Positions 236 through 11,965 of a stretch of DNA of 12,269 nucleotides are shown one piece after another. Each line of letters opens with the position of its first letter. Position 1 is the stretch's first letter. The position numbers were made by a program, and so were the translations under genes. The notes under the pieces are model-generated. The model had not been told where the DNA came from. It saw nothing but the letters and a program-made list of their open reading frames with translations, and did no database searches. This DNA comes from Deltaproteobacteria bacterium (GTDB taxonomy: Bacteria; Desulfobacterota_C; Deferrisomatia; Deferrisomatales; JACRMM01), in NCBI GenBank assembly GCA_016218905.1, contig JACRCS010000988.1:1-12269 (forward strand), read 5' to 3'.

Positions 236-266
236 CCGGAAGGGCTCCTACTTCAGCCCCTTTCGG
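236..266 (-). terminator. Imperfect stem-loop enclosing the DUF1329 stop codon (tentative)
   Basis: CCGGAAGGGCT (236-246) pairs with AGCCCCTTTCGG (255-266) across an 8-base loop, with one bulged base and one A-C mismatch in the minus-strand RNA. The TAG stop of the DUF1329 gene (248-250) lies in the loop. No T-tract follows on the minus strand, so this is not a canonical intrinsic terminator. It might protect the 3' end of the transcript or be incidental. Confidence 0.25.
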
Positions 267-1711
267 CCCTCGAGCTTGATGTCCTCCCGGTCCCACGCGG
301 CCGGGATCGCGGCTCCCATGATCACGTTCGAGTGCAGGTCGATGTGGTCCCTGAAGTGGGCAAACGCTCCGAACCAGGACATGTGGCCCATCTCGGGATG
401 CCAGCCCGGGTTCAGGTCGAAGGTCCGGTAGAGGCGGCCCTTCTGATCATAGTTGGCGATGTGGTAGAAGTTGAAGTTCTCCTGATCGATGTAGAGGATC
501 CGGCTGCCGTAAACGTAGTTCTTGTCCTGCTGCGTGAGCTTCACTACGTAGAGCGGCCGTCTCTCCAGCCGGACGTTCCGGAACTCATAGTTGCCCTTCG
601 AGCTCACGTACTCTGCGCCGTCGATCGTCGGGGCCATCACGAGGTACTCTCGCTCCTCGATGATCTCCATCTTATAGGGATAACGCTGCGGACTGAGCTT
701 CTGTCCCCATCCCTCCTGGTCTTCGTAGATCAGGTCCTGCCCACCGATGGCGTCCTGCGTGTCGGTCGCGCTCATCTTCTTCACGCGCCGGAAGGAGGGG
801 ATGTACATGAGGTTGAGGTCCGGCTTGAGAGGGTCCCTGTAGTAGATCTGCTCCAGGCCCAGCCCCGCCATGTCGCGTGGGGTCTCGAAGACGACCAGGG
901 CCGTTCCCGTCTCCCCCAGTTCCTCCGCCCGCTTGTCATAGGTGCCGTAGGGCGGGAAGACCGCGCGCCCGGCGAGGCTCATGCGGCGCACCGTGTCGAT
1001 GCCGGCGAAATCGATCTTGAGATTTTTGTTGAAGCCCAGCCCGTAGTTGACGAGCCAGACCTCGTGGCCGAAGCTCAGGTACCGCTTCTCCACGTTCGCC
1101 ATGATCTGCTGGGCCTTGAAGGGGCCTGAGGGCCGCGGGAAAGGGTAACCGCCGGCCCAGGTGGAGCCGATGACGTATCCCTTGTCATCGAGCTTCGTCT
1201 TGCCGAGGTTCTTCTTGGTCATCTCGGAGATCCCCAGAGACCAGTAGTACTCTCTCGTCGGAATGATCTCGAACTCGGGGATGTTCCCGGAGTGGGGCGG
1301 GGCCCCCGGTTTGATCCGGTTGTAGAGGTCGGGCGTCATCAGCTGCTTGAAGCCGGGGTGCTGGGACAGATCCTTGTACGTGTACTTCCCGGGTTTGATC
1401 TCCGGGGCGATCTTTCCCACGACGTCAGGGGCCTTGAACCCGACCAGCTCCGACCACGCCTTCTTCATGTCTTCCGGTTCGGCCACGAGGTGCGAGTACA
1501 CGGAGGCCGGCAGGATCTGCTTCAGCCCGAACTCCTTCAGCACCGGACGCGGGTCGTCCAGCGCCTTCTTGTGCTTCTCGAACTCCGCCCAGGTGAAGGT
1601 ATAGGTCTCCGGATTGATACGCTTGGGCTCAGCCCCTCGCGCCAGCAGCGGAAGGGCGAGCACCAGAGAGGCAGCCGAGAGAATCAAACGCATCGCTTGC
1701 TTGCGTCTCAT
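248..1711 (-). CDS. DUF1329 family exported protein, possible periplasmic hydrophobe carrier
   Basis: This is a 487-residue protein starting at ATG 1709-1711. The start is chosen because AAAGGAG lies 9 bases upstream and because it opens directly into a signal peptide: basic MRRKQAMR, a hydrophobic stretch to about residue 23, and a cleavage region near 24-27 (ARGA). The body looks like DUF1329 (PF07044), including WAGGYPFPRPSGP near 185-197, and the length suits the family. Residues 303-331 (YIPSFRRVKK, then IGGQDLIYED) and 401-430 (YGSRILYIDQ, then YDQKGRLYRT) resemble the LolA-like carriers found beside MMPL transporters. That similarity is my inference. It is the last gene of the four-gene envelope operon, 57 bases after the DUF1302 gene. 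DUF1329 and DUF1302 genes are commonly adjacent. The biochemical function is unknown; a periplasmic location is likely. Confidence 0.9.
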   Translation of the reverse strand: MRRKQAMRLILSAASLVLALPLLARGAEPKRINPETYTFTWAEFEKHKKALDDPRPVLKEFGLKQILPASVYSHLVAEPEDMKKAWSELVGFKAPDVVGKIAPEIKPGKYTYKDLSQHPGFKQLMTPDLYNRIKPGAPPHSGNIPEFEIIPTREYYWSLGISEMTKKNLGKTKLDDKGYVIGSTWAGGYPFPRPSGPFKAQQIMANVEKRYLSFGHEVWLVNYGLGFNKNLKIDFAGIDTVRRMSLAGRAVFPPYGTYDKRAEELGETGTALVVFETPRDMAGLGLEQIYYRDPLKPDLNLMYIPSFRRVKKMSATDTQDAIGGQDLIYEDQEGWGQKLSPQRYPYKMEIIEEREYLVMAPTIDGAEYVSSKGNYEFRNVRLERRPLYVVKLTQQDKNYVYGSRILYIDQENFNFYHIANYDQKGRLYRTFDLNPGWHPEMGHMSWFGAFAHFRDHIDLHSNVIMGAAIPAAWDREDIKLEGRKGLK

Positions 1712-1720
1712 CGCGAGTTT

Positions 1721-1727
1721 CTCCTTT
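1721..1727 (-). promoter_or_regulatory. Ribosome binding site that fixes the DUF1329 start
   Basis: AAAGGAG on the minus strand sits 9 bases before ATG 1709-1711. It favours that start over an in-frame TTG at 1739-1741, which would add ten charged residues ahead of the signal peptide. Confidence 0.75.
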
Positions 1728-1768
1728 CGGAAGAGTTCCAACCGTTGAAGTAGGGTCAGCCGTCCGGA

Positions 1769-3355
1769 TCACTGAAACTTGTAGGTCACCGTCGCGAAGA
1801 GCTTGTCGTGGTTCTTCATCGCGTCGTTCCCGATGCCTCGGGCGCTCGCCTTCAGGGCGAAGACGCCCAAGCCCAGGTCCCAGGACTGCGTGGGAGAATA
1901 CGTCAGCTTACCGAGCCAAGTATCCGACTGGTTCGTGTAGTCGTGCGACCAGAAGAAGAGCGGAGCCAGCTTGTTGTGGAGGTAGCTCGTCATCACGACC
2001 AAGGTCGACTTGTGGTTGTTCTCCCGGAGCGCCGGCGGCACCGATCCGCGCTGGGTGACGGTGAGCGGTTGGCCGCCGATGAGCGCGTTGGCCACGTCGC
2101 CGGAATCGGGGAAGTCCAGCTCCCGCTGGTAGAAGTACTGAGGCGAGATGAAGAAGTAGGCCCTGGGGTTCAACCAGTTGATCTTCACCTTCCAGTCGAC
2201 CCCGAGGGCGAGGCGCAGCTCGTCGGTCTTCCAGAAGAACTTCGCGGGATCGAACATTTCGTTTGTTCCGTAGGTGGTGTCGAAGGCGTAGATCGCCTCG
2301 AGGCGGAGGACCGGGGCGACGCCCCCCAGGAAGCTCGCCTTCAGCCCCTCGAAGGCACCGGAGGCCGTGAGGCCGACGAACCGGAGCTTGGGGAACTCTC
2401 CCTCCTGGAAGGGATGGATGACCGGCAGGCCATCGAAGCCGTTCGCGATCGGATCGACCGTGGGAGGAATCGGAAGCGGATGCGCCGCGAAGTCGCGGTC
2501 CCGGCCGTTGAAGTAGAGGAGGTTCACCAGGGTGCCGCGGATGTTCCCCTTGAGCTTCAAACCGTAGCTGAAGTCCTTGGGATCGAGATTGTCCGGCCGG
2601 TCGATCTTGCTGTGAAGGCTCCCGAGGTGCACGGGTGCGCCCAGGTCGACGCCGGGCGCGAAGACGCCCTGGCGGTCGTTCCCGGCCTCGACGATCTGGT
2701 TGCCGCGGAACTGCAGCGCCGGGTCGAGGATGAACTGCAACCCGAGATCCTGGAGCACGGTCGAGTTGACTTTCGTGTTGTACTCGGCACGCACGAGCCA
2801 GATCGGGATGATCGTGTGCTCGAACTTCACGTCCGTCGGGCCCCGCCGCTGATCCACGGGATTGATGAGGTTCGCGAGAACGAATCCGTCCGTCTCGCCC
2901 CACTGCACCACCTGTTTGCCGAGGCGGAGGTAGACGTGTTCCGCTCCGTAAGTGACGTGGGCCTCCTTCAGGAGATCCTGCCAGTCGTCCCGGATGTACT
3001 GGTGATCGCGGGAGCGGTCGAACAGCTTGTCGTTCCACTGGTTGTTGTTCTTCAGGATGTCGTAGGCCCAGTCGGCCTCGAAGCTGCCCGAGACGAAGGC
3101 GCTAACGTTCCGGCTCGGCTTCGCCTCGACCTCCACGAGCGCGGTCGTCAGGAAGGAGTTGAAACCGCTCTGGTTCTCGAACTTGTTCTTGACCAGGCCG
3201 TAGTCGGCCTCCTGCGAAATGTAGCCCATGATCGAGACCGGTTTGCCTCCCACTGTAAACTCGTACGCGGATCCCGAGGAGAGGAGAACGCCGAAGGAGA
3301 GGAGGGATAACCCCAGGACCGTTCCGATCTTGCCTCGCCGCTTGCTCAACGTCAT
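1769..3355 (-). CDS. DUF1302 family outer-membrane beta-barrel-like protein
   Basis: This is a 528-residue protein from ATG 3353-3355, preceded by GAAAGGTGTG about 6 to 9 bases upstream. It has a signal peptide: KRRGK, a hydrophobic core at residues 11-26, and likely cleavage after SGSA (residue 30). Residues 143-172 carry the DUF1302 (PF06980) hallmark, with LRLGKQVVQWGETDGF followed by LINPVDQRRG. The rest alternates polar and hydrophobic residues and is rich in Tyr, Phe and Trp, as expected of beta-strands. It ends TVTYKFQ, close to the aromatic C-terminal signal of outer-membrane barrels but with one extra Gln after the Phe. An in-frame GTG at 3413-3415 would extend the N-terminus by 20 residues, but it would bury the signal peptide. 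The gene lies 74 bases after the RND gene and 57 before DUF1329. Role inferred: outer-membrane pore or acceptor for what the RND pump moves. Confidence 0.9.
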   Translation of the reverse strand: MTLSKRRGKIGTVLGLSLLSFGVLLSSGSAYEFTVGGKPVSIMGYISQEADYGLVKNKFENQSGFNSFLTTALVEVEAKPSRNVSAFVSGSFEADWAYDILKNNNQWNDKLFDRSRDHQYIRDDWQDLLKEAHVTYGAEHVYLRLGKQVVQWGETDGFVLANLINPVDQRRGPTDVKFEHTIIPIWLVRAEYNTKVNSTVLQDLGLQFILDPALQFRGNQIVEAGNDRQGVFAPGVDLGAPVHLGSLHSKIDRPDNLDPKDFSYGLKLKGNIRGTLVNLLYFNGRDRDFAAHPLPIPPTVDPIANGFDGLPVIHPFQEGEFPKLRFVGLTASGAFEGLKASFLGGVAPVLRLEAIYAFDTTYGTNEMFDPAKFFWKTDELRLALGVDWKVKINWLNPRAYFFISPQYFYQRELDFPDSGDVANALIGGQPLTVTQRGSVPPALRENNHKSTLVVMTSYLHNKLAPLFFWSHDYTNQSDTWLGKLTYSPTQSWDLGLGVFALKASARGIGNDAMKNHDKLFATVTYKFQ

Positions 3356-3429
3356 GAGCTTCACACCTTTCAGCAAAATGGTTGCCAACGTGAAGGACTG
3401 ACTTCCTCCTAACACCTAAAACCTGATTC

Positions 3430-5862
3430 CTACGCTTCCTCCGCGGCCACGACGGATTCGAGACCGGCCCCTCTACATCGGCTCTCGTTCAAAGCGACTA
3501 CGCCTCGGGTTATGAACTTGGGCTTGATGAGATAGATCATCAGCGGGTGCAGGGTGAAACAGAAGAGAACGTTGATACCCATGATCATGGACAGGAAGAA
3601 CCCCACCTGGGCCTGGAACTTCATGTCGGAGAGGAAGTACCACGTCAGGATGGGGAGGACGATCGTGACGCCCGTATAGAAGACCGCCTTGCCGCAGGTG
3701 CAGATCGACTGGGTGATCGTGGCGCCCCAGCTTCGGTGGACCGGGAACTCCTCCATGGCCCGACTGTAGAGGTAGATCGCGAAGTCTGCGCCGATCCCGG
3801 CGCCGATGGCCGCGATGGGCAGCGTATTGATCGACAGGCCCATCCCGTTGAGGCTCATGTAGGCTGCGACCATGACGTTCGCGATCATCAGGGGCACGGT
3901 GAGCATCAGGCCGGCCACGAAGGAGCGGAACATGAAGGAGCAGAGCAGGATCATCCCCGTGTAGATGAGGGCGTCGATCAGGGCGTGCGTGCGCCTCATC
4001 TCCTCGTTCACCGCAATCTCCATTCCGATGCGGCCTCCGGCGAGCTTGAACTCGCCCGAGCCGGTCTTCATGGGATGGTCCTTGAAGAAGCCGTAGGCGG
4101 CGTCCCGGATGCGTTCCAGGTTGTCGGAGGTGTGGTCGGAGAAGTAGAGCTGGATCTGGGACCGCTCCAGGTCCGCGTCGAGGAAGCGCTGGAGGGCCGT
4201 CGCGCCCGTGACTCTACGGACGTACCCCACCACCGCCGTGAGCTGTTCTTCTTCGCTCGGCAGCTGGTGGTAGGCGGGGTCCCCGTCGTGGAGCATCACG
4301 TTGACCATCTTCGCCATGTTCCCAACGGAGCTCGAAGACTTGTAGATGTCGGGCAGGCGGACGGCCATGTACTCCTGGAAGTCGTCGAAGGTCTGCAGCA
4401 CGGCCGGCTCGTACACCGACTGCGGGGCTCCCTCGTAGAAGAGCGCGAGGTTCTCCGACGAGGCGTTGAAGAGCCCGTCGACGACGGCCGTGTCCTTGTT
4501 GTAGGGGTGGCTCGAGTAGAAGAGCGGAGAGCCCGGAGTGGGATCTCCGATCTTCAGCTTCGTCATCTCCCAGGCGCAAAAGGCGATGAGCACCCCAAGC
4601 ATCGTGCCCATGACGTACTTCGTCCTGGGCCCGATGGAGAAGCTCGTCAGGGCCATGAAGAGACGGGCCTTCCGGTCGAGGTGGCAGCTCTCCTTCGCCC
4701 ACTCCCCGCTCGCCACCTCAAGGGGGATGAGGCTGCAGATGGCGGGGACCAGGAAGCCGGTAAGGAGGATGGTCATCATCCAGAAGGTCATGATGATCGC
4801 CAGGTGCTGCATGAGGGCGATCTTGGCCACGAAGAGGACCGTGAACCCCGCCGCGTCCGAGACGACCGCGGTGAAGTTCGGGATGAACATCGTCCGCATC
4901 GTCTCGTAGCACGCCTTCGTCCGGTCGCCCCCGCTCGCGTTCAGCTCCTCGAAGTAGCGGTAGGCGATCTGATGGGAGTTCCCGATGATTCGGGAACCGA
5001 CCAGGAACGCCAGGACGTAGAGGAGCGGGTTGAAGTTGATCCCCGTGAACCCGATGAAGCCGAGACCCCAGATCGTCAGGATGAGCGTCGCGGCCAGGGG
5101 GGAGATCGCTCCGGGAACGTTGGTGAAGATGAGCCAAAGCACGAGGGCGATGGCCGCCAGGCTGACGCCGAAGACCATGAACATCTGGGATTTGAGGCTG
5201 AAGACCCAGCCCATCAGCATCGGGTAGCCGACCACGTGGACGGAGGTCTCACCGTCCGAGTACTGCTGCACGATGCCCCGCAGCATGTTGAAGGCGCGCA
5301 GGTAGGAGATGTTCTCCTTGAACTCGGTGAGCAGGAGCGCGGCCTTGCCGTTCTCGGCGACGAGCGTCCCGTTGTAGGCCGGATTGGAGAAGACGTTCTT
5401 TTTCAGGGAGTCGAGCCCCTCCCGGGTTTGGGGCACGTCCGGGTACATCAACGCTTCGATGCTGATCTCGCCCTTGGCCTTGGTGTGGACGACCTTGCTC
5501 AAGTTGCTCGCGATGGAAACGGTGAGGAGGCGGTAGACCTCGTCCGCCATCTCCACCTGCTCCGTCATCTTCTTCAGCTTCGTGAGGGTCTTGGGGTTGA
5601 AGATGTCGCCGTTCTTCTGGACGAGGGCGATGGCTACGGTCGAGCCTCCGCTCCCGAACACCTCGGCGAAGCGGGCCTGCAATTTGAGATAAGGGTGGTC
5701 GTACGGGAGCATCTCCTGGAGGATCACCTCGCCCCGGATCTGGAACGCGCCGTAGGCGAAGACGGCCGTGATCGCCAGAATGGCGACGAGGGCGGGGACT
5801 CTCTTCCGGGTCAGGTACCAGGAGATCTTGTCGGAGAGGTTGCGCTTCGCGTCGAGACCCAT
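3430..5862 (-). CDS. RND superfamily (MMPL/COG1033-type) inner-membrane transporter
   Basis: This is an 810-residue protein from ATG 5860-5862 with GGAAGG 7 bases upstream. It shows the duplicated RND layout: a first membrane helix at about 23-41, a periplasmic domain at about 42-220, a helix bundle at about 226-380, a helix near 415-432, a second periplasmic domain at about 435-628, and a second bundle at about 631-778. The second half carries IGAGIGADFAIYLYSR (686-701) with Asp693, the usual proton-relay position of MMPL proteins. The equivalent first-half stretch, VGSRIIGNSHQIAYRYFEEL (288-307), has no acidic residue at that position. The length fits COG1033-type exporters, which often move lipids or other hydrophobic molecules. 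It is the second gene of the operon, 56 bases after the propeller gene. Substrate unknown; export to the periplasm is inferred from family and neighbours. Confidence 0.93.
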   Translation of the reverse strand: MGLDAKRNLSDKISWYLTRKRVPALVAILAITAVFAYGAFQIRGEVILQEMLPYDHPYLKLQARFAEVFGSGGSTVAIALVQKNGDIFNPKTLTKLKKMTEQVEMADEVYRLLTVSIASNLSKVVHTKAKGEISIEALMYPDVPQTREGLDSLKKNVFSNPAYNGTLVAENGKAALLLTEFKENISYLRAFNMLRGIVQQYSDGETSVHVVGYPMLMGWVFSLKSQMFMVFGVSLAAIALVLWLIFTNVPGAISPLAATLILTIWGLGFIGFTGINFNPLLYVLAFLVGSRIIGNSHQIAYRYFEELNASGGDRTKACYETMRTMFIPNFTAVVSDAAGFTVLFVAKIALMQHLAIIMTFWMMTILLTGFLVPAICSLIPLEVASGEWAKESCHLDRKARLFMALTSFSIGPRTKYVMGTMLGVLIAFCAWEMTKLKIGDPTPGSPLFYSSHPYNKDTAVVDGLFNASSENLALFYEGAPQSVYEPAVLQTFDDFQEYMAVRLPDIYKSSSSVGNMAKMVNVMLHDGDPAYHQLPSEEEQLTAVVGYVRRVTGATALQRFLDADLERSQIQLYFSDHTSDNLERIRDAAYGFFKDHPMKTGSGEFKLAGGRIGMEIAVNEEMRRTHALIDALIYTGMILLCSFMFRSFVAGLMLTVPLMIANVMVAAYMSLNGMGLSINTLPIAAIGAGIGADFAIYLYSRAMEEFPVHRSWGATITQSICTCGKAVFYTGVTIVLPILTWYFLSDMKFQAQVGFFLSMIMGINVLFCFTLHPLMIYLIKPKFITRGVVALNESRCRGAGLESVVAAEEA

Positions 5863-5918
5863 GGTCGTGCCTTCCGTTTGAGGTCAGTTGCCGCCGGAGG
5901 AGCGCTCGCAGGGGCTGA

Positions 5919-6935
5919 CTAGAGCCTGGCCCGGCCCCACTTCTCGCCCTTCCCGTCGCTCAGGTAGATCCATCCCTCCTTCCCGACCCCGACGTAGCCG
6001 GCGGCGCCCCGCGGGATGATGCGGTAGATCCAGCCGTAGCGGACCGGCGGCTCGGCGCCGGCGGGCCTGAAGGTGGCGCCGCCGTCGGAACTGGAGAGCA
6101 GGAGGCCGTCGCCGCCGATGAGGACCCTTCCCCTGGCATCGCTCGCCACGGCGAAGAGGTGGGCGCGGGGAAGGCCGCTCACCACCTGCCAGGTGGCGCC
6201 GCCGTCGGTGGTCTTCGTTACGTACCCGTCGATGCCCACGGCCCAGGCGGTACGCGGATCGACCGCTACGATGTCGAAGAGGAAGGTTCCGCCCTCGGGC
6301 TCGCCCGTCCGGTCGGAGATCCGGTAGGAACCCGCCTGCTGCCGCCAGGTAGCGCCGCCGTCCTCGGTCCGGTAGATGAAGCCGTACTCGCCGGCCGCCC
6401 AGCCGGTGCGCTCGTCGCAGAAGGAGACCTTCTTCAGGAGGAAGTCCTCGTCCTTGAACTGGACGGCCCAGGTCCGGCCGCCGTCCGCCGTGTAGAGGAT
6501 GGTCGTCCTCTCGCCGACCGCCCAGCCCTTCAGCGGGCTCACGAACTGGACGGACATGAGGAACTCTTTCACCGGGCTCTTCTGCGGGGCCCAGGTCTTG
6601 CCGCCGTCGGTCGTGTGGAGGATCGTCCCGACGTCTCCCACCGCCCAGCCGTTTTGCCGGTCGAAGAAGGAGACGGAGGTCAGGGTCCGCATCGTTCCGC
6701 TCTGTTGGACCACCCAGGTGGAACCTCCGTCCGCGGTGTGGACGATGGCTCCCCGCCGCCCGCAGGCCCATCCCTCCTTCTCGCTGGGGAAGCTCACCGC
6801 GAGGAGGTCATGGGAGAACTTTGCAGAACGCGCTTCCACTCCGGTCGCGGCGAGCGACACGGCGAGCGCCAGACCTGCGGCTCGCAGGAGTGCCGCAGCG
6901 CGGACGGGGGAGCGGGCGGGCCGGGATGCGTGCAT
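5919..6935 (-). CDS. Ycf48-like exported beta-propeller (photosystem II stability factor/BNR-repeat family)
   Basis: This is a 338-residue protein from ATG 6933-6935 with AAGGAG (6945-6950) 9 bases upstream. It has an Arg-rich N-terminus, a hydrophobic segment at about 13-30, and likely cleavage after VEA (residue 35). Six Asp-box motifs (S/T-x-D-G-G-x-T-W/F) have their Asp at 69, 110, 151, 192, 244 and 284. A degenerate seventh, YLSDGKGEKW, lies at 324-333. Each is preceded by a GWAVG-like strand (for example 97-100, 137-141 and 231-234). Seven repeats fit a seven-bladed propeller as in Ycf48/HCF136. The family is best known for photosystem II assembly, but nothing photosynthetic is present here, and homologues occur beside RND/DUF1329/DUF1302 genes in heterotrophs. 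It is the first gene of the envelope operon. Likely role: periplasmic scaffold or substrate-contact protein for the RND pump (inference). Confidence 0.9.
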   Translation of the reverse strand: MHASRPARSPVRAAALLRAAGLALAVSLAATGVEARSAKFSHDLLAVSFPSEKEGWACGRRGAIVHTADGGSTWVVQQSGTMRTLTSVSFFDRQNGWAVGDVGTILHTTDGGKTWAPQKSPVKEFLMSVQFVSPLKGWAVGERTTILYTADGGRTWAVQFKDEDFLLKKVSFCDERTGWAAGEYGFIYRTEDGGATWRQQAGSYRISDRTGEPEGGTFLFDIVAVDPRTAWAVGIDGYVTKTTDGGATWQVVSGLPRAHLFAVASDARGRVLIGGDGLLLSSSDGGATFRPAGAEPPVRYGWIYRIIPRGAAGYVGVGKEGWIYLSDGKGEKWGRARL

Positions 6936-7281: not shown

Positions 7282-8568
7282 CTAGTTGCCCATGAGTCGC
7301 GTCGGGAGCCAGAGGACCAGCGGGGGGTAGTACGTGACCAGGAGGAGCACGACGGCGAGGGCGAGGATGAAAGGAGTGCTCTCGCGAAAGGTCTCCCCGA
7401 CACGGGCGTTGCCGATGGACGACGTGAGATAGACGAGGAAACCGACGGGAGGCGTCAGAAGCCCGATCTGGAGGTTCAGCACCACCATGACCCCGAAGTG
7501 CACGGGGTCGACGCCGACCTTCTGGACGAGAGGGACGAACATGGGGACGAGGATGATGAGGGCCGGGACCGGGTCGAGGACGCAGCCCCAGGCGAGGAAG
7601 AAGACGTTGATGACGAGCAGCGTCACCCAGGGGGAGGTCGAGATGGACTGCACCGTCGCCACGATCGCGTCCGCGACGCGCATGTTGGCGAGGAGCCAAC
7701 CGAAGACGTATGAAGCGCTCAGGATCAGGAGCATCACCGCCGAACCGGCCGCCGCCCGGCCGAAGACGCGGGGAATGTCCCGAAACCCCATGCCCCGGTA
7801 GACGAAGAGCCCCACCACGAGGGCGTAGAGCGCGGCGATGGCGCCCGCCTCCGTGGCGGTCATGAGGCCGGCCACGATGCCGCCGAGGACCAGGAGGGGC
7901 ATGAGGAGGGCGAAGAGCGCTTCCCAGAGGGCTCGGAAGCGCTCGGACCAGACGACGCGCGGCGACGTCGCGTAGCCGCGCCTGCGGCTGACGAGGTAGG
8001 ACGTTCCCATCAGGTAGAGTCCCATCACGGCGCCCGGCACCGCGCCGCCCAGGAAGAGCTTCCCGATGGAGATGTTGGCGAGGATCCCGAGGACGAGCAT
8101 GGGGAGGGACGGCGGGATGATGGGCCCGATGGTGCCCGCGGCGGCCGTAAGGGCGGAGGCATAGGGGGCGCCGAAGCCGGCGCGCTTCATCGCGGGGATG
8201 AGCACGGAGCCGGTGGCCGCGGCGTCTGCCACGGAGGAGCCGGAGACGCCGGCCATGAGCATGTTCGAGACGACCACCACGTGGGAGAGCCCGCCCCGGA
8301 AGTGACCGACGAAGGCGGTGGCCACGTTGACGAGCCGCTGGGTGATGCCGCCCTCGTTCATCAGCTCGCCCGCGAGGTAGAAGAAGGGAATCGCCAGGAG
8401 CGAGAAGGAGTCGAGGCCGGAGAGCATGCGCTGCGGAAGCACCTCGAGCGGGATCTGCCCCGGGTGGACGAGGATGAACGCCGTGGAGGCGAGCCCCATC
8501 GAGAAGGCCACCGGCACGCCCAGCGCCATGAAGGCGAAGAGGAAGAGGAGCAGTAGCGCGAGGTCCAC
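7282..8568 (-). CDS. dctM: TRAP transporter large permease subunit (DctM family)
   Basis: This is a 428-residue protein starting at GTG 8566-8568 with GGAGG 5 bases upstream. The N-terminus (LALLLLFLFAFMALGVPVAF) and length match DctM proteins. It is hydrophobic throughout, about 11-12 predicted membrane helices. It carries family landmarks: LLAIPFFYLAGELMNEGG (57-74), GVSGSSVADAAATG (107-120) and GTIGPIIPPS (145-154). These regions form the transport core of this Na+-coupled family. It is the last gene of the hyuA-hyuB-dctPQM run, 70 bases after dctQ. With DctQ it forms the inner-membrane complex fed by the DctP binding protein. The substrate class is usually a carboxylate; the specific one is unknown here. 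Confidence 0.95.
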   Translation of the reverse strand: MDLALLLLFLFAFMALGVPVAFSMGLASTAFILVHPGQIPLEVLPQRMLSGLDSFSLLAIPFFYLAGELMNEGGITQRLVNVATAFVGHFRGGLSHVVVVSNMLMAGVSGSSVADAAATGSVLIPAMKRAGFGAPYASALTAAAGTIGPIIPPSLPMLVLGILANISIGKLFLGGAVPGAVMGLYLMGTSYLVSRRRGYATSPRVVWSERFRALWEALFALLMPLLVLGGIVAGLMTATEAGAIAALYALVVGLFVYRGMGFRDIPRVFGRAAAGSAVMLLILSASYVFGWLLANMRVADAIVATVQSISTSPWVTLLVINVFFLAWGCVLDPVPALIILVPMFVPLVQKVGVDPVHFGVMVVLNLQIGLLTPPVGFLVYLTSSIGNARVGETFRESTPFILALAVVLLLVTYYPPLVLWLPTRLMGN

Positions 8569-8573
8569 GTCAG

Positions 8574-8578
8574 CCTCC
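8574..8578 (-). promoter_or_regulatory. Ribosome binding site for the GTG start of dctM
   Basis: GGAGG on the minus strand lies 5 bases before GTG 8566-8568 and supports the non-ATG start. The next in-frame ATG is 13 codons on and would cut into the first membrane helix. Confidence 0.7.
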
Positions 8579-8638
8579 GGGCCCGACGACCTCCTGGCGA
8601 GGCGGTCGGGCGTGGACAGGTCGAAAGGGATCAGCCGC

Positions 8639-9136
8639 CTACCGACTCTCCAAGGAGGTCGACTCTTCGTGAGCCGGCGGCGCGAGGATCCGAAAGAAGA
8701 TCAGGAGGCCCATGAGCCCCGCGCCCACCGGAAGGGCGGCGTAGAGGTACATGACCGTGAAGGGCAGAAACGCGTAGAAAGTGAGGTCCCCCGCCTTCAC
8801 CACCGGGAGGCTCTTCGCGATCAGCAGAAGCAGGAAGGCGAGCACCACCACGTGCACGAGGACGTCGAGGCGCCTCCGGTTCGCTTTGCCGAGCTTCTCG
8901 CGGAGCATGTCCATCCGGAGATGGACGTTCCGGTAGAGGGCCGCGGCGGACCCGAGCCACGCGGCCCAGCCGAAGAAGAGGACGGAGAGCTCCTCGGGCC
9001 AAGGCAGCGAGGCCTGGAAGAGGTACCGCAGCCCCACCTGGAGCGAGACCACGAGCAGCATCCCGAGGAGGAGCAGGCCCGCGACGAGCTCCACCAGGCC
9101 GCCCAGGCGCTCGGAGGCCTTCGCGAAGCGGCTCAT
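8639..9136 (-). CDS. dctQ: TRAP transporter small permease subunit (DctQ family)
   Basis: This is a 165-residue protein from ATG 9134-9136. Its first bases overlap the dctP stop as ATGA (9133-9136), so translation is probably coupled; there is no strong Shine-Dalgarno. The reading frame stays open further upstream, but that part lies inside dctP and is GC-rich out-of-frame sequence. Four membrane helices are visible, at about 13-35, 50-68, 88-108 and 125-150. LRYLFQASLPWPEELSVLFF (36-55) is the familiar R-Y-x-F-x-x-x-x-x-W-x-E-E pattern of DctQ, and HLRMDML follows at about 72-78, as usual. It partners DctM in the inner membrane. The C-terminal tail is short and polar. Confidence 0.93.
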   Translation of the reverse strand: MSRFAKASERLGGLVELVAGLLLLGMLLVVSLQVGLRYLFQASLPWPEELSVLFFGWAAWLGSAAALYRNVHLRMDMLREKLGKANRRRLDVLVHVVVLAFLLLLIAKSLPVVKAGDLTFYAFLPFTVMYLYAALPVGAGLMGLLIFFRILAPPAHEESTSLESR

Positions 9137-10155
9137 TTGCTCTTCAGCTTCCGGACCTCCTGGAGGAGGCCCTTGCGCCAGAACTTCCCCGAGCTGTCCC
9201 ACTCCTCGAGCAGCGGCTCGATCATCGCCGCGAAGGCCTGACGGTCGGGGACCGTGATGTTCATCCCCTTGGCCTTCAGCGTCTCGAGGTCCTTCAGCTC
9301 CTGCGCCCGCCAGGTCTGGCTCTGGAACTCGCCGGCCTCGGCCCCCGCCTCGATCACGATCTTCCGCTGGGCCGGCGTGAGGCTGTCCCACGCCTTGTCG
9401 CTCATCACCAGCGTGAGCGCGGGCATCAGGTGGGCCAGGAGGGCCACGTTTTTCTCCACCTCGTAGAACTTCATCTGGGCGACCGAGATGACGTCGCTGT
9501 CCTCCCCGTCCACGAGGCCCGTCTGGAGGGCCGTGAAGAGCTCGCTGAACTCCACCGGGGTCGGCGCCGCCCCCCAGGCCCGGAAGATCTCCAGGTGCAT
9601 GGGGAAGGGCGCCACGCGGATCTTCAGCCCCTTCAGGTCGGCCGGCGTCTTCACCGGCTTCGTCTTCGTGGAGAGCTGCTTGGGGCTCCGGTCGCCGAAG
9701 TAGGCGAAGACCTGGAAGCCCACCCTCGCGTTGTTGAACTCCGAGATGATCTCCGCGAGGACCGGCGAGCGGAGGAAGGCCAGCAGATGGTTCGTGTCGC
9801 GGAAGGCGAAGGGCGCCATGAAGACATTGAAGTCCCGCCCGTTGCGGAAGGGGGCGAGCATCGCGTAATCCATCACGCTCACGTCGATCGTGCCGGTCTT
9901 GAGCGCACCCGGCGTCTCCCGCACGTTGGCGAGCTGCGCGTTGGGAAAGACCTGGACCTCCATCTCGCCCTTGCTCTTCGCCGCAACGAGCTCGGCGAAC
10001 TTCACCGCGCCCTTGTGCATGGGCGTGCCTTCCGAGAGGAAGTGCGAGAACTTGAGGGTGACCTTCGCCTCGGCGGCCGAGCCCGCAAGGGCCGCGAGGA
10101 CCAGCGCCATCAGGGTGCAGAGCTTCGCAGCGAGCCCTCTACGACCGGTGGTCAT
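9133..10155 (-). CDS. dctP: TRAP transporter periplasmic solute-binding protein (DctP family)
   Basis: This is a 340-residue protein from ATG 10153-10155 with a very strong AAAAAGGAGG 5 bases upstream. The signal peptide has MTTGRRG, a hydrophobic core at about 9-24, and cleavage after AEA (residue 30). The mature part begins KVTLKFSHFL, typical of DctP. LKGLKIRV (174-181) contains Arg180, which aligns with the conserved arginine that grips the substrate carboxylate in this family. It is followed by GAAPTPVEFSELFTALQTGL (195-214) and VDGEDS, the usual second-lobe landmarks. Length is normal. It lies 88 bases after hyuB and overlaps dctQ. Next to hyuAB, a plausible ligand is a small carboxylate such as 5-oxoproline or a carboxylated hydantoin (inference only). 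Confidence 0.95.
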   Translation of the reverse strand: MTTGRRGLAAKLCTLMALVLAALAGSAAEAKVTLKFSHFLSEGTPMHKGAVKFAELVAAKSKGEMEVQVFPNAQLANVRETPGALKTGTIDVSVMDYAMLAPFRNGRDFNVFMAPFAFRDTNHLLAFLRSPVLAEIISEFNNARVGFQVFAYFGDRSPKQLSTKTKPVKTPADLKGLKIRVAPFPMHLEIFRAWGAAPTPVEFSELFTALQTGLVDGEDSDVISVAQMKFYEVEKNVALLAHLMPALTLVMSDKAWDSLTPAQRKIVIEAGAEAGEFQSQTWRAQELKDLETLKAKGMNITVPDRQAFAAMIEPLLEEWDSSGKFWRKGLLQEVRKLKSK

Positions 10156-10160
10156 TCTCG

Positions 10161-10170
10161 CCTCCTTTTT
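10161..10170 (-). promoter_or_regulatory. Strong ribosome binding site of dctP
   Basis: AAAAAGGAGG on the minus strand, 5 bases before ATG 10153-10155, is the best Shine-Dalgarno in the window. It fits the high amount of binding protein that TRAP systems need relative to their permeases. It rules out the longer open frame that runs up into hyuB. Confidence 0.8.
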
Positions 10171-10243
10171 GATGGGCGGCCGAGCCGCGCCGGCAACGTC
10201 TTCTCCAACACGTCTGTTTCGAAACCGGAAAGGAAGACCGGCC

Positions 10244-11965
10244 TCACGGTCCCCCACGGAGCGCCCTCGTCCCGTCGTGGTCGACGCTTCGCCCGTCGGC
10301 TCCGAGCGCGACGCCGTAGTCGAGGCGGGCGCTCTCCGGCGAGACGTACCCGTTGCGGACGTCCTCCAGCACCGCCTCCGGAGGCCGCTCCAGCGGGTCG
10401 CCGTAGCCCCCGCCACCGCCCGCGGTCACGACGACGCGGTCGCCCTCGTCGAGCTCCACGCCGGGATGCTTGAGCACCTCGAACTCGCCCTTCGCCTTGG
10501 ACCGGATCAGGGCGAAGTTGCGCAGCCCCTCCTTGCCTCCGAAGAGCCCCCAGTGTGGCGTCTTCCCCTTCTCGATCACGCCGAAGAAGATGCCCGGCGC
10601 GGTGAGCCGGAAGTGGGTCCGGGAAGCGAGACCGCCCCGGTGTCTGCCGGCGCCGCCGCTGTCCGGCACGAGCTCGCAGCGGTCGACCACGAGGGGGTAG
10701 GTCGACTCCAGGACCTCGCTCGGCGTGTTCTTGCACGCCCCGGCCGAGAGCGGATAGAGGAAGCACTCCCCGTCGGAGTGGTAGTCTCCGCCCTGACCGA
10801 CCACGCAGGGGGTGAGCGTCCCCCAGTACCTTCCGGTCTCCGGGTCCATCCCGGCGAACCCCTCGCACACGACGTCGGCCCCCGAGAGCGCGGGGACGCG
10901 CTCGGGGAGCGCCCGGTGGAGGGCCCGGTTGATCAGGTCGAGGGCGATCGGGGCCACCCAGGCGTAGAGGAAGGAGGGCACCGTGTCGCTCGCGTTGAAG
11001 ATGCTCCCCTCGGGCGCGACCACCTTGATGGGCCGGTTGAAGCCCTCGTTCCCGGGGAGCTCGGGGACGGTGAGCGCCTTCACGCCGACCCTCGCCGCCG
11101 CCAGGGTGCTGATCAGGAGGCCGTTCATCGGTCCCCGCTGCTCGGGCGCGGAGCCGGTGAAGTCGATCGTGATCTCGTCGCCTTCGACCGTGATCGTGAC
11201 CTTCACCGGGACGGGCCGGTCGTGGTCGATGCCGTTGTCGTCCAGGTAGTCCTCGGCCGTGTAGACCCCGTCGGGGATCGCGGCGATGGCGTGGCGGATC
11301 ATCCGTTCGCTGTGGCCGTAGATCTCCTCGACACACGCGCGCACGGTCTCGGCGCCGTACTTGTCGAGGAGCTCCGCGATCTGCTTCTCCGCGAACCGGC
11401 AGCCGGCGACCTGGGCCTGCATGTCGCCCCAGACCGCGTCCGGCGCCCGCGAGTTCGCCTTGATGATCTCCCAGACGTCCTTCTGGAGCTCTCCCTTCCG
11501 GTAGATGCGCACCGGGGGCACCCGCAGGCCCTCCTCGAAGACGTGCCGGGCGTCGGTGGGGAAGACGTCCTTCGCGCCCAGGTCGAGCCAGTGGGACTTG
11601 GTCGACGCGTACCCGAAGAGGCTCCCCCGGTAGAAGATGGGGGTGAAGAGCAGCGCGTCGGAGGTGTGGGCGCCGGTGATGCCCGGGCAGGTCGAGATGA
11701 TCACGTCCCCGGGTTCGAGGTTCTCCTTCCCCAGCACTTCGACGCAGTTCCGCGTCGCCGGGCCGAGGCTCCCCAGGAAGAGCAGCATGCCGTGGGACTG
11801 AGCGAGCACGCCCGCCTCAGCGTCGAGGACGCCGAAGCAGCAGTCCATGATCTCGTACAGGAAGGGAGTCACGCCGCAGCGGAAGGCTGTCTCCTGCATG
11901 CCGTTGGCCACGGAGATCAGGTTGTTCCGTACGACGGCGAGGGTGATCGGGTTTACTTGCGCCAT
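10244..11965 (-). CDS. hyuB: Hydantoinase B/oxoprolinase family protein (HyuB)
   Basis: This is a 573-residue protein from ATG 11963-11965, preceded by GAAGGGAAAGAG. The N-terminus (NPITLAVVRNNLISVANGMQ) and C-terminus (GGGGGYGDPLERPPEAVLED from 516, then VRNGYVSPESARLDYGV) are textbook for PF02538, and the length is normal. Subunits of this type pair with HyuA in ATP-dependent N-methylhydantoinases, 5-oxoprolinases and acetone/acetophenone carboxylases; the sequence does not distinguish these. The likely metal-site pairs are kept as H100-x-x-D103 and H125-x-x-D128. The region usually reading N-D-P-Y just before the first His is STCPGITG here (91-98), so the active-site loop is divergent. The A-subunit gene is immediately upstream. 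Cytoplasmic enzyme; exact reaction not assigned. Confidence 0.93.
   Translation of the reverse strand: MAQVNPITLAVVRNNLISVANGMQETAFRCGVTPFLYEIMDCCFGVLDAEAGVLAQSHGMLLFLGSLGPATRNCVEVLGKENLEPGDVIISTCPGITGAHTSDALLFTPIFYRGSLFGYASTKSHWLDLGAKDVFPTDARHVFEEGLRVPPVRIYRKGELQKDVWEIIKANSRAPDAVWGDMQAQVAGCRFAEKQIAELLDKYGAETVRACVEEIYGHSERMIRHAIAAIPDGVYTAEDYLDDNGIDHDRPVPVKVTITVEGDEITIDFTGSAPEQRGPMNGLLISTLAAARVGVKALTVPELPGNEGFNRPIKVVAPEGSIFNASDTVPSFLYAWVAPIALDLINRALHRALPERVPALSGADVVCEGFAGMDPETGRYWGTLTPCVVGQGGDYHSDGECFLYPLSAGACKNTPSEVLESTYPLVVDRCELVPDSGGAGRHRGGLASRTHFRLTAPGIFFGVIEKGKTPHWGLFGGKEGLRNFALIRSKAKGEFEVLKHPGVELDEGDRVVVTAGGGGGYGDPLERPPEAVLEDVRNGYVSPESARLDYGVALGADGRSVDHDGTRALRGGP

Follow-up and report, generated by a model that had tools for sequence, protein, structure and literature searches.

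Described relatives of the four-gene cassette

The closest described relatives of the locus analysed here are gene sets that combine a DUF1302 protein, a DUF1329 protein, a Ycf48-like beta-propeller and an inner-membrane transporter of the resistance-nodulation-division (RND) type. Such a set occupies positions 6935-248, on the minus strand, of a 12,269-nucleotide stretch from a Deltaproteobacteria bacterium (assembly GCA_016218905.1, contig JACRCS010000988.1), called the window hereafter. An initial annotation of this DNA had described the families as being without an established function. Several publications do address their function (PMC6394551, PMC13101534, PMC10866462, PMC6449761, PMC3958437). 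With a probability of about 0.6, we read the cassette as a proton-driven trans-envelope system that handles a hydrophobic growth substrate.

In Castellaniella defragrans, AmeABCD consists of AmeA (DUF1302), AmeB (DUF1329/LolA), AmeC (COG4447, Ycf48-like) and AmeD (an HAE3 RND), and was proposed by its authors as a tetrapartite exporter (PMC6394551). Insertion into ameB and deletion of ameABCD give loss-of-function phenotypes, including one in the use of perillic acid. The deletion also lowers monoterpene tolerance and raises Nile Red accumulation; Nile Red efflux curves are almost identical in the wild type and the deletion strain, the difference being seen in uncoupler-treated cells (PMC6394551). 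The same paper describes the periplasm as the destination of substrates moved by HAE3-type RND proteins, and hopanoids as the cargo of HpnN. In Pseudomonas putida, PP_0765/PP_0766 and PP_2018/PP_2019 are needed on Tween 20; this common phenotype, together with AlphaFold co-folding in which the contact of the RND PP_2019 with PP_2018 was called strong, led to their proposal as a novel transport system (PMC10866462). Like the window, this set comprises a DUF1302 protein, a DUF1329 protein, a periplasmic protein (PP_2018, which we assume to be a propeller) and an efflux transporter; judging from the locus tags, it lies in two separate places, whereas the window genes form one run.

Other accounts connect these genes to hydrocarbons. 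In Betaproteobacteria, regulators of aromatic pathways control operons of the four families, which possibly cope with toxic aromatics (PMC6449761). ORM2a, a member of the Desulfobacterota in a methanogenic benzene culture, expresses on benzene a “Nanopod” cluster, the direction being left open by the authors (PMC13101534). By its description, this cluster resembles the window in its DUF1329, YCF48-related, MMPL and porin-like proteins, and differs by two extra genes, encoding a universal stress protein and a hypothetical protein. A Delftia mutant in phnL (Delcs14_1758, Ycf48-like) showed a 48 h lag on phenanthrene, grew normally on pyruvate, and had lost most of its vesicle and nanopod output (PMC3958437). 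Just before phnL, the locus tags 1756 and 1757 mark DUF1302 and DUF1329 genes, and both families were found in nanopods (PMC3110197); an RND gene at the phnL locus was not seen in the available parts of these published accounts (PMC3958437, PMC3110197). The two literatures differ on one point: the ORM2a paper (PMC13101534) credits the Delftia phenanthrene defect to the DUF1329 gene DelCs14_1722, while the main text of the Delftia paper (PMC3958437) contains neither DelCs14_1722 nor “DUF1329” and names phnL. Finally, Thalassolituus TOL_3187 carries MMPL and LolA-like domains in a single chain and is up 42-fold on a C28 alkane (PMC6304351).

The window cassette belongs to this already described kind. 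Its four families are contiguous and co-oriented, as in an Ame-type cassette, and all of them are shared with AmeABCD. The AmeABCD order, DUF1302-DUF1329-propeller-RND, is called conserved by its authors (PMC6394551) and differs from the propeller-RND-DUF1302-DUF1329 order of the window, which is therefore not filed as AmeABCD itself. The four frames are all open, and the gaps between them measure 56, 74 and 57 bases (with starts taken at 6935, 5862, 3355 and 1711), in agreement with the initial annotation.

The RND pump and its intramembrane acids

The window RND (810 aa, 5862-3430, minus strand) passes the Pfam MMPL model PF03176 with 55.9 against 20.5 bits. Its best NCBIfam model is HAE3 (TIGR00921), whose cut-off of 351.9 bits lies well above the 125.9 bits obtained, and the protein is thus called HAE3-like only. 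The initial annotation had given 12 helices; a simple hydropathy scan gives 9 segments above threshold, and the figure of 12 rests on family membership rather than on the scan.

A FastTree phylogeny was built from 93 RNDs, five of 98 rows having been dropped (scores under 640). The window RND falls, with 74 other rows, in a cassette clade of 75 rows with top support, the remaining 18 rows being generic; AmeD is not among the 93 sequences, and the likeness of the window RND to it is by family description. A propeller gene is found within 6 kb of 65 of the 75 cassette-clade rows and of none of the 18 generic ones.

The clade also differs in the placement of its intramembrane acids. The acid of transmembrane helix 4 (TM4) is missing in 74 of the 75 cassette-clade rows, which mostly have His or Asn there (“SHGVQ”, “GNSHQ”), and an Asp stands at this position in 11 of the 18 generic rows (“ADSVH”). 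An acid in TM5 is present in 67 of the 75 cassette-clade rows against none of the 18 generic rows, where Thr is usual. By alignment, the TM4 stretch of the window RND (residues 286-303, 4954..5007, minus strand) contains Arg291, Asn295 and Gln298, with Asn295 at the position of the generic Asp, and the TM5 stretch (residues 330-342, 4837..4875, minus strand) contains Asp336, the extra acid of the clade. Arg291 is typical of most of the clade's window side; the other side, which carries the motif seen on plasmids of P. putida, Massilia and P. aeruginosa, has Ile or Leu there. That the TM4 Asp is universal in generic relatives was considered and rejected, as it is absent in L099, L100, L106, L122, L148, L149 and L151. 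Since these seven generic rows are also without it, and the TM5 acid divides the rows 67/75 against 0/18, the latter is a cleaner mark of the clade than the loss of the TM4 acid. L148, L149 and L151 form a second RND group, with His for the TM4 Asp, Ala in TM5 and no propeller found; loss of the TM4 acid is thus not confined to the cassette clade.

A family-profile search provided 28 further RNDs, which are further members and not a blind sample: the TM5 acid is present in 27, the TM4 acid is missing in 27, and both features are combined in 26. The same 28 have the TM10 Asp in 26 cases (Asn in two) and a propeller in the short flanks of 18. The plasmid RNDs fit the TM4/TM5 signature in six cases out of six.

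In MmpL3, Asp-Tyr dyads in TM4 and TM10 serve proton relay (PMC7458404). Like the cassette clade, the window RND keeps the TM10 Asp, here Asp693 (3784..3786, minus strand), which aligns, as a weak match, with an Asp of such a dyad, whereas its TM4 position is Asn295. We infer that the TM5 Asp may replace the TM4 Asp in the relay. No mention of this TM4-loss/TM5-acid detail was found in what the literature searches returned, with search terms that were not aimed at TM5.

Where a propeller lies within 6 kb, 60 of 66 RNDs have the TM5 acid; where none does, 7 of 32 have it. This linkage was also considered as an independently repeated one, which is not shown, with 5 acid changes on the tree and 4 independent pairs on starred branches. 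Because the tree needs just 5 TM5-acid changes, the pattern is best described, for the aligned sequences, as the mark of one clade and not as a repeated correlation. Exceptions occur on both sides. A propeller without the TM5 acid is seen at L129 and L143 (Asn), L146 and L147 (Ala), L096, and beside one HAE1-like open reading frame (ORF) in L095, which is not the cassette pump. Conversely, the seven RNDs with the TM5 acid and no propeller comprise four at contig edges and three with a flank of ~1.4 kb. The cassette-clade rows L073, L074 and L082 have neither the TM5 acid nor a propeller in a ~1.4 kb flank, and L116 combines an Asp in TM4 with the TM5 acid. The RND of L096 (contig C138 of genome G007), cassette-linked and on a very long branch, has no TM4, TM5 or TM10 relay acids that could be found; it is possibly degenerate or not proton-driven.

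Linkage, genomic context and the partner proteins

Scanning genome contigs with the RND alignment gave 26 related loci, and in 21 of them all four families lie in one single-strand cluster. The 21 loci are not 21 independent genomes, L002, L006, L009 and L012 all belonging to one Desulfatitalea metagenome-assembled genome (MAG). Among the other five, L006 is without a detected DUF1302 gene, and the contigs of L010, L012, L019 and L026 are short or truncated. The order of the window is the commonest. Another, RND-DUF1329-propeller-DUF1302-DUF1329, is that of Parvibaculum and its kin; two further orders are seen in L005 and L014, and those met across the loci also include DUF1302-DUF1329-propeller-RND and propeller-RND-DUF1329-DUF1302. 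It had been suggested that a propeller encoded first points to an early-made assembly factor; as the order varies across loci, this does not follow.

Over 11 genomes, 97 DUF1329 places share a cluster with DUF1302 in 60 cases, with RND in 35 and with the propeller in 33, and an RND belongs to the cluster of 34 of the 42 propellers. DUF1329 matches weaker than ~1e-14 are omitted from these counts, as are second halves of RND genes (72 RND rows), and each propeller gene has one row. The counts indicate two sub-modules, propeller plus RND and DUF1302 plus DUF1329, which join in different orders, the second also occurring alone. In G007 (record PL23a_bin.76), 29 clusters hold both DUF1329 and DUF1302, against at most ~2 chance neighbours within 4 kb for its 53 DUF1329 and 35 DUF1302 genes; G011, a Desulfatitalea MAG, has 29 DUF1329 matches. 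Propeller-RND units number ~10 in G007 (L025, L087-L106) and ~12 in G011 (L107-L126).

Within each of these two genomes, the distances of the four proteins correlate across the copies: Mantel r lies between 0.73 and 0.87 for G007 and between 0.80 and 0.98 for G011, with permutation values no higher than 0.0035. Each pair rests on 7 to 12 copies, some of which are cut by contig ends. As the copies are compared inside one genome, species relatedness cannot matter here. The four genes are inherited as units, which speaks of co-inheritance and not of contact. The proposal that the four families form one unit is thus borne out by the 21 of 26 loci, the G007 clusters and the co-divergence, and a neighbourhood survey of the kind suggested along with it gives association beyond chance.

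A different arrangement is seen at L152-L155, L150 and L076, where generic RNDs (TM4 Asp, TM5 Thr) stand beside genes that profiles label as LolA-like and barrel, with no propeller in their short flanks; perhaps this type is an ancestral three-part form. For L152-L155, the flanks are ~1.5 kb long and the DUF labels come from iterated profiles, not from Pfam. With TOL_3187, these four loci share an MMPL-type RND fused to or beside a LolA-like domain, as in the RND and LolA-like pair of the window, from which they differ by the lack of a propeller in those flanks and by their TM4 and TM5 residues.

Among the 96 ORFs flanking 12 window-type loci, the commonest of the 25 Pfam families listed is HGD-D (2-hydroxyacyl-CoA dehydratase / benzoyl-CoA-reductase type), with 5 ORFs, and there are also 3 BadF/BcrAD ATPases, 2 thiolases and 2 phenylacetate-CoA-ligase-type genes; length was the criterion for choosing these ORFs, and some of them, which matched no family, are probably not real genes. 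Of 85 HGD-D genes in 8 genomes, 13 have a DUF1329 gene within 6 kb against at most 3.2 expected, and the corresponding figures are 8 against 1.8 at 3 kb and 14 against 4.9 at 10 kb, all counted among the matches listed and with G008 (67 copies, small contigs) omitted from the control. This association fits anaerobic aromatic degradation and does not name the substrate of the window. G008 itself, a Nitrospinae MAG that contains L014, matches the 2-hydroxyglutaryl-CoA dehydratase D family 67 times within its 3.7 Mb. With several cassettes lying beside CoA-dependent or other degradation genes, an envelope lipid seems less likely as cargo than a growth substrate.

The RND profile matches 39 of 198 genomes in a phylum sample around Desulfocicer (E 1e-100; G001 and G007, known beforehand, are included) and 36 of 200 in one around Parvibaculum (E 1e-60; generic RNDs included). 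Among the 72,556 records of a plasmid collection, the profile finds 46 at E 1e-20, and five of the six examined have all four families. On plasmid 2 of Aromatoleum aromaticum EbN1, the cassette (EBN1_RS22870-22885) has the four families in the order of the window, with an RND ~31% identical to that of the window. It stands amid acyl-CoA dehydrogenase, thiolase, AMP-ligase and hydroxyacyl-CoA dehydrogenase genes, a beta-oxidation-like run that the window does not have. The complete cassettes on plasmids of Methylibium PM1, P. putida YC-AE1 and Massilia WG5 have oxidoreductase, aldehyde dehydrogenase or pobA genes nearby, pobA on the YC-AE1 plasmid and aldehyde dehydrogenases on that of WG5. Two plasmids show unusual arrangements. 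On that of Methylibium PM1 (L185, 11477-19748), a single RND is surrounded by three DUF1329 genes, of which one lies on the other strand. On pBHB of Comamonas 7D-2 (L186, 8271-11316), an RND and a short propeller piece lie between transposase genes; no DUF1302 or DUF1329 was found in this stretch, which looks like a broken-up cassette.

The three partners of the pump each have one N-terminal hydrophobic, signal-peptide-like segment in the hydropathy scan, as the initial annotation had noted. The propeller (338 aa, 6935-5919, minus strand) passes the Pfam PSII_BNR model PF14870 with 116.2 bits (gathering threshold 27) and stays below the NCBIfam Ycf48 equivalog cut-off (NF010237; 115.6 against 326 bits). 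It is thus assigned to the Ycf48 fold family (PF14870) only, and not to the Ycf48 photosystem II assembly factor. Six canonical Asp boxes, [ST]xDGGxT[WF], are found at residues 67, 108, 149, 190, 242 and 282, and Ycf48 proteins are its best relatives by sequence in the PDB. The DUF1302 protein (528 aa, 3355-1769, minus strand) passes PF06980 (52.8 against 23.2 bits). Its AlphaFold2 model is a large barrel of moderate confidence (predicted local distance difference test, pLDDT, 67), with the porins OmpU, OmpF and MOMP as best Foldseek matches and no TolC-type duct among the best 50 listed; the model is compatible with the suggested role as outer-membrane partner.

The DUF1329 protein (487 aa, 1711-248, minus strand), a predicted periplasmic carrier, passes PF07044 (86.5 against 23.1 bits) and LolA_like PF17131 (61.3 against 30 bits), the latter domain spanning residues 280-441 in a 496-residue reading of the gene. 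Roughly the first 200 residues of its AlphaFold2 model (mean pLDDT 87.1) are mostly helical and the rest is strand-rich. Foldseek ranks LolA3 of Porphyromonas gingivalis (9tp6, TMt 0.83) first, and also retrieves the DUF1329 structure 4z48 (0.71). The model thus has a LolA fold, in line with the carrier role assigned initially. Over 45 pairs of window-type cassettes, mean identity falls from the RND (56.7%) to the propeller (51.1%), DUF1329 (44.9%) and DUF1302 (40.8%), a gradient expected if the outer parts meet a varying substrate.

Upstream of the cassette and co-oriented with it, positions 7282-11965 hold a complete tripartite ATP-independent periplasmic (TRAP) transporter (DctM, DctQ, DctP) and a hydantoinase B gene. 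These were rejected as cassette parts, given the 346-base gap from the propeller gene and the lack of a recurring neighbour set: DctP and DctQ have no match in the compared loci, and relatives of HyuB and DctM occur in 9 and 6 of these loci with an identity of only ~24-27%. In L001, the closest relative of the window, an upstream hydantoinase A gene resembles acetophenone carboxylase gamma (668.7 bits, below the 1500 cut-off), a likeness that was not built upon. A promoter and terminator scan of the window stayed at chance level, with 1 promoter-like site against 1.1 expected and 7 terminator-like sites against 6.2.

Proposed substrate handling and competing explanations

The proposed handling system would work as follows. 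The substrate, which could be a catabolic intermediate or else a compound of aromatic, terpene-like or long-chain type, would cross the outer membrane at the DUF1302 barrel, be held between the membranes by the LolA-type DUF1329 carrier, and be exchanged between this carrier and the RND at the inner membrane. The propeller would be the partner of the RND, since the strong contact reported is that of PP_2019 with PP_2018 (PMC10866462), and the RND would spend the proton gradient through Asp693 of TM10 and Asp336 of TM5. Linkage, co-divergence, the modelled LolA fold and porin-like barrel, and the cassette-specific RND clade argue for such a system; for the window copy, hydrophobic-substrate handling is predicted from its genes, models and related systems. 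The initial annotation had likewise pictured one machine moving a hydrophobic molecule, a sound idea, as published genetics ties such genes to the use or tolerance of hydrophobic compounds, though not a new one. As to direction, the growth failures argue for import, and the lowered tolerance and small Nile Red effects under uncoupler for export; net inward supply has roughly even odds, slightly better than those of outward movement. A bolder version, a Lol pathway in reverse, looks doubtful: a LolA-fold carrier would pass the substrate from the barrel to a proton-driven RND, inwards or into the inner membrane, with the TM5 acid replacing that of TM4 and a dozen-odd diverged copies per genome each having its own substrate.

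The same genes could instead form a tolerance pump, exporting a toxic hydrophobic substrate or its intermediates from the inner membrane and periplasm, as proposed for AmeABCD. That the deletion strain tolerates monoterpenes less well and accumulates more Nile Red favours this explanation, as do the direction described for HAE3-type RNDs (PMC6394551) and the listing of the four families by comparative genomics as possibly coping with toxic aromatics (PMC6449761). Efflux kinetics almost identical in wild type and mutant, with a Nile Red difference under uncoupler, fit it less well (PMC6394551). On Tween 20, phenanthrene and perillic acid, it is the use of the substrate that fails, and the DUF1302 model is porin-like, with no TolC-type duct among its best 50 matches listed. 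A pump of this kind is a real but lesser possibility. Envelope remodelling, in which a lipid would be moved, changing the outer membrane or driving vesicles and thereby helping growth on hydrocarbons indirectly, appears rather unlikely. It would account for the loss of vesicle and nanopod output in the Delftia phnL mutant (PMC3958437) and for the presence of DUF1302 and DUF1329 proteins in nanopods (PMC3110197), and HpnN offers a precedent in its transport of hopanoids (PMC6394551); yet the phnL mutant is normal on pyruvate (PMC3958437), and tens of diverged copies per genome, such as the 53 DUF1329 in one, are easier to reconcile with many substrates than with a single lipid. A chance run of unrelated envelope genes has in its favour only that some DUF1302-DUF1329 pairs and single members stand by themselves. 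This explanation is of negligible probability and is refuted by the neighbourhood counts, given linkage in several bacterial groups, the varied orders in which the four genes occur and their co-divergence inside genomes.

Several observations weigh against the handling of a growth substrate as favoured here. AmeABCD is read by its authors as an exporter (PMC6394551), and TOL_3187 by its own as helping porin placement (PMC6304351). The two DUF1329 contacts of the P. putida set are called weak in one panel and likely in another (PMC10866462). Whole-block duplication would also give co-divergence, without any complex. The HGD-D neighbours amount to seven sites, six of them tandem pairs, with 8 of the 13 in G007 and none in four of the eight genomes. 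In one of the five complete plasmid cassettes, that of P. aeruginosa MH19, mercury-resistance genes adjoin and there is no plain catabolic set, and the TRAP transporter and hydantoinase B beside the window cassette do not identify a substrate and are not a recurring group of neighbours. The assignment of relay residues rests on alignment and not on a structure of the window RND, and the non-universal TM4 Asp of the generic rows slightly lowers confidence both in the favoured explanation and in the suggested role of TM5.

The cassette kind being already in print, the part for which the literature searches returned no description is the placement of the acids within the membrane part of the pump. 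Little is understood of how oily substrates traverse the aqueous periplasm of Gram-negative bacteria, and this type of pump is a good test bed, being present in 39 of the 198 genomes of one phylum sample and on plasmids, some of them catabolic, and multiplied in some genomes. The TM5 acid provides a sequence mark that separates the cassette pumps from the generic MMPL-type proteins compared, and would make it possible to test, by changing a single residue, whether protons drive the pump and in what way.

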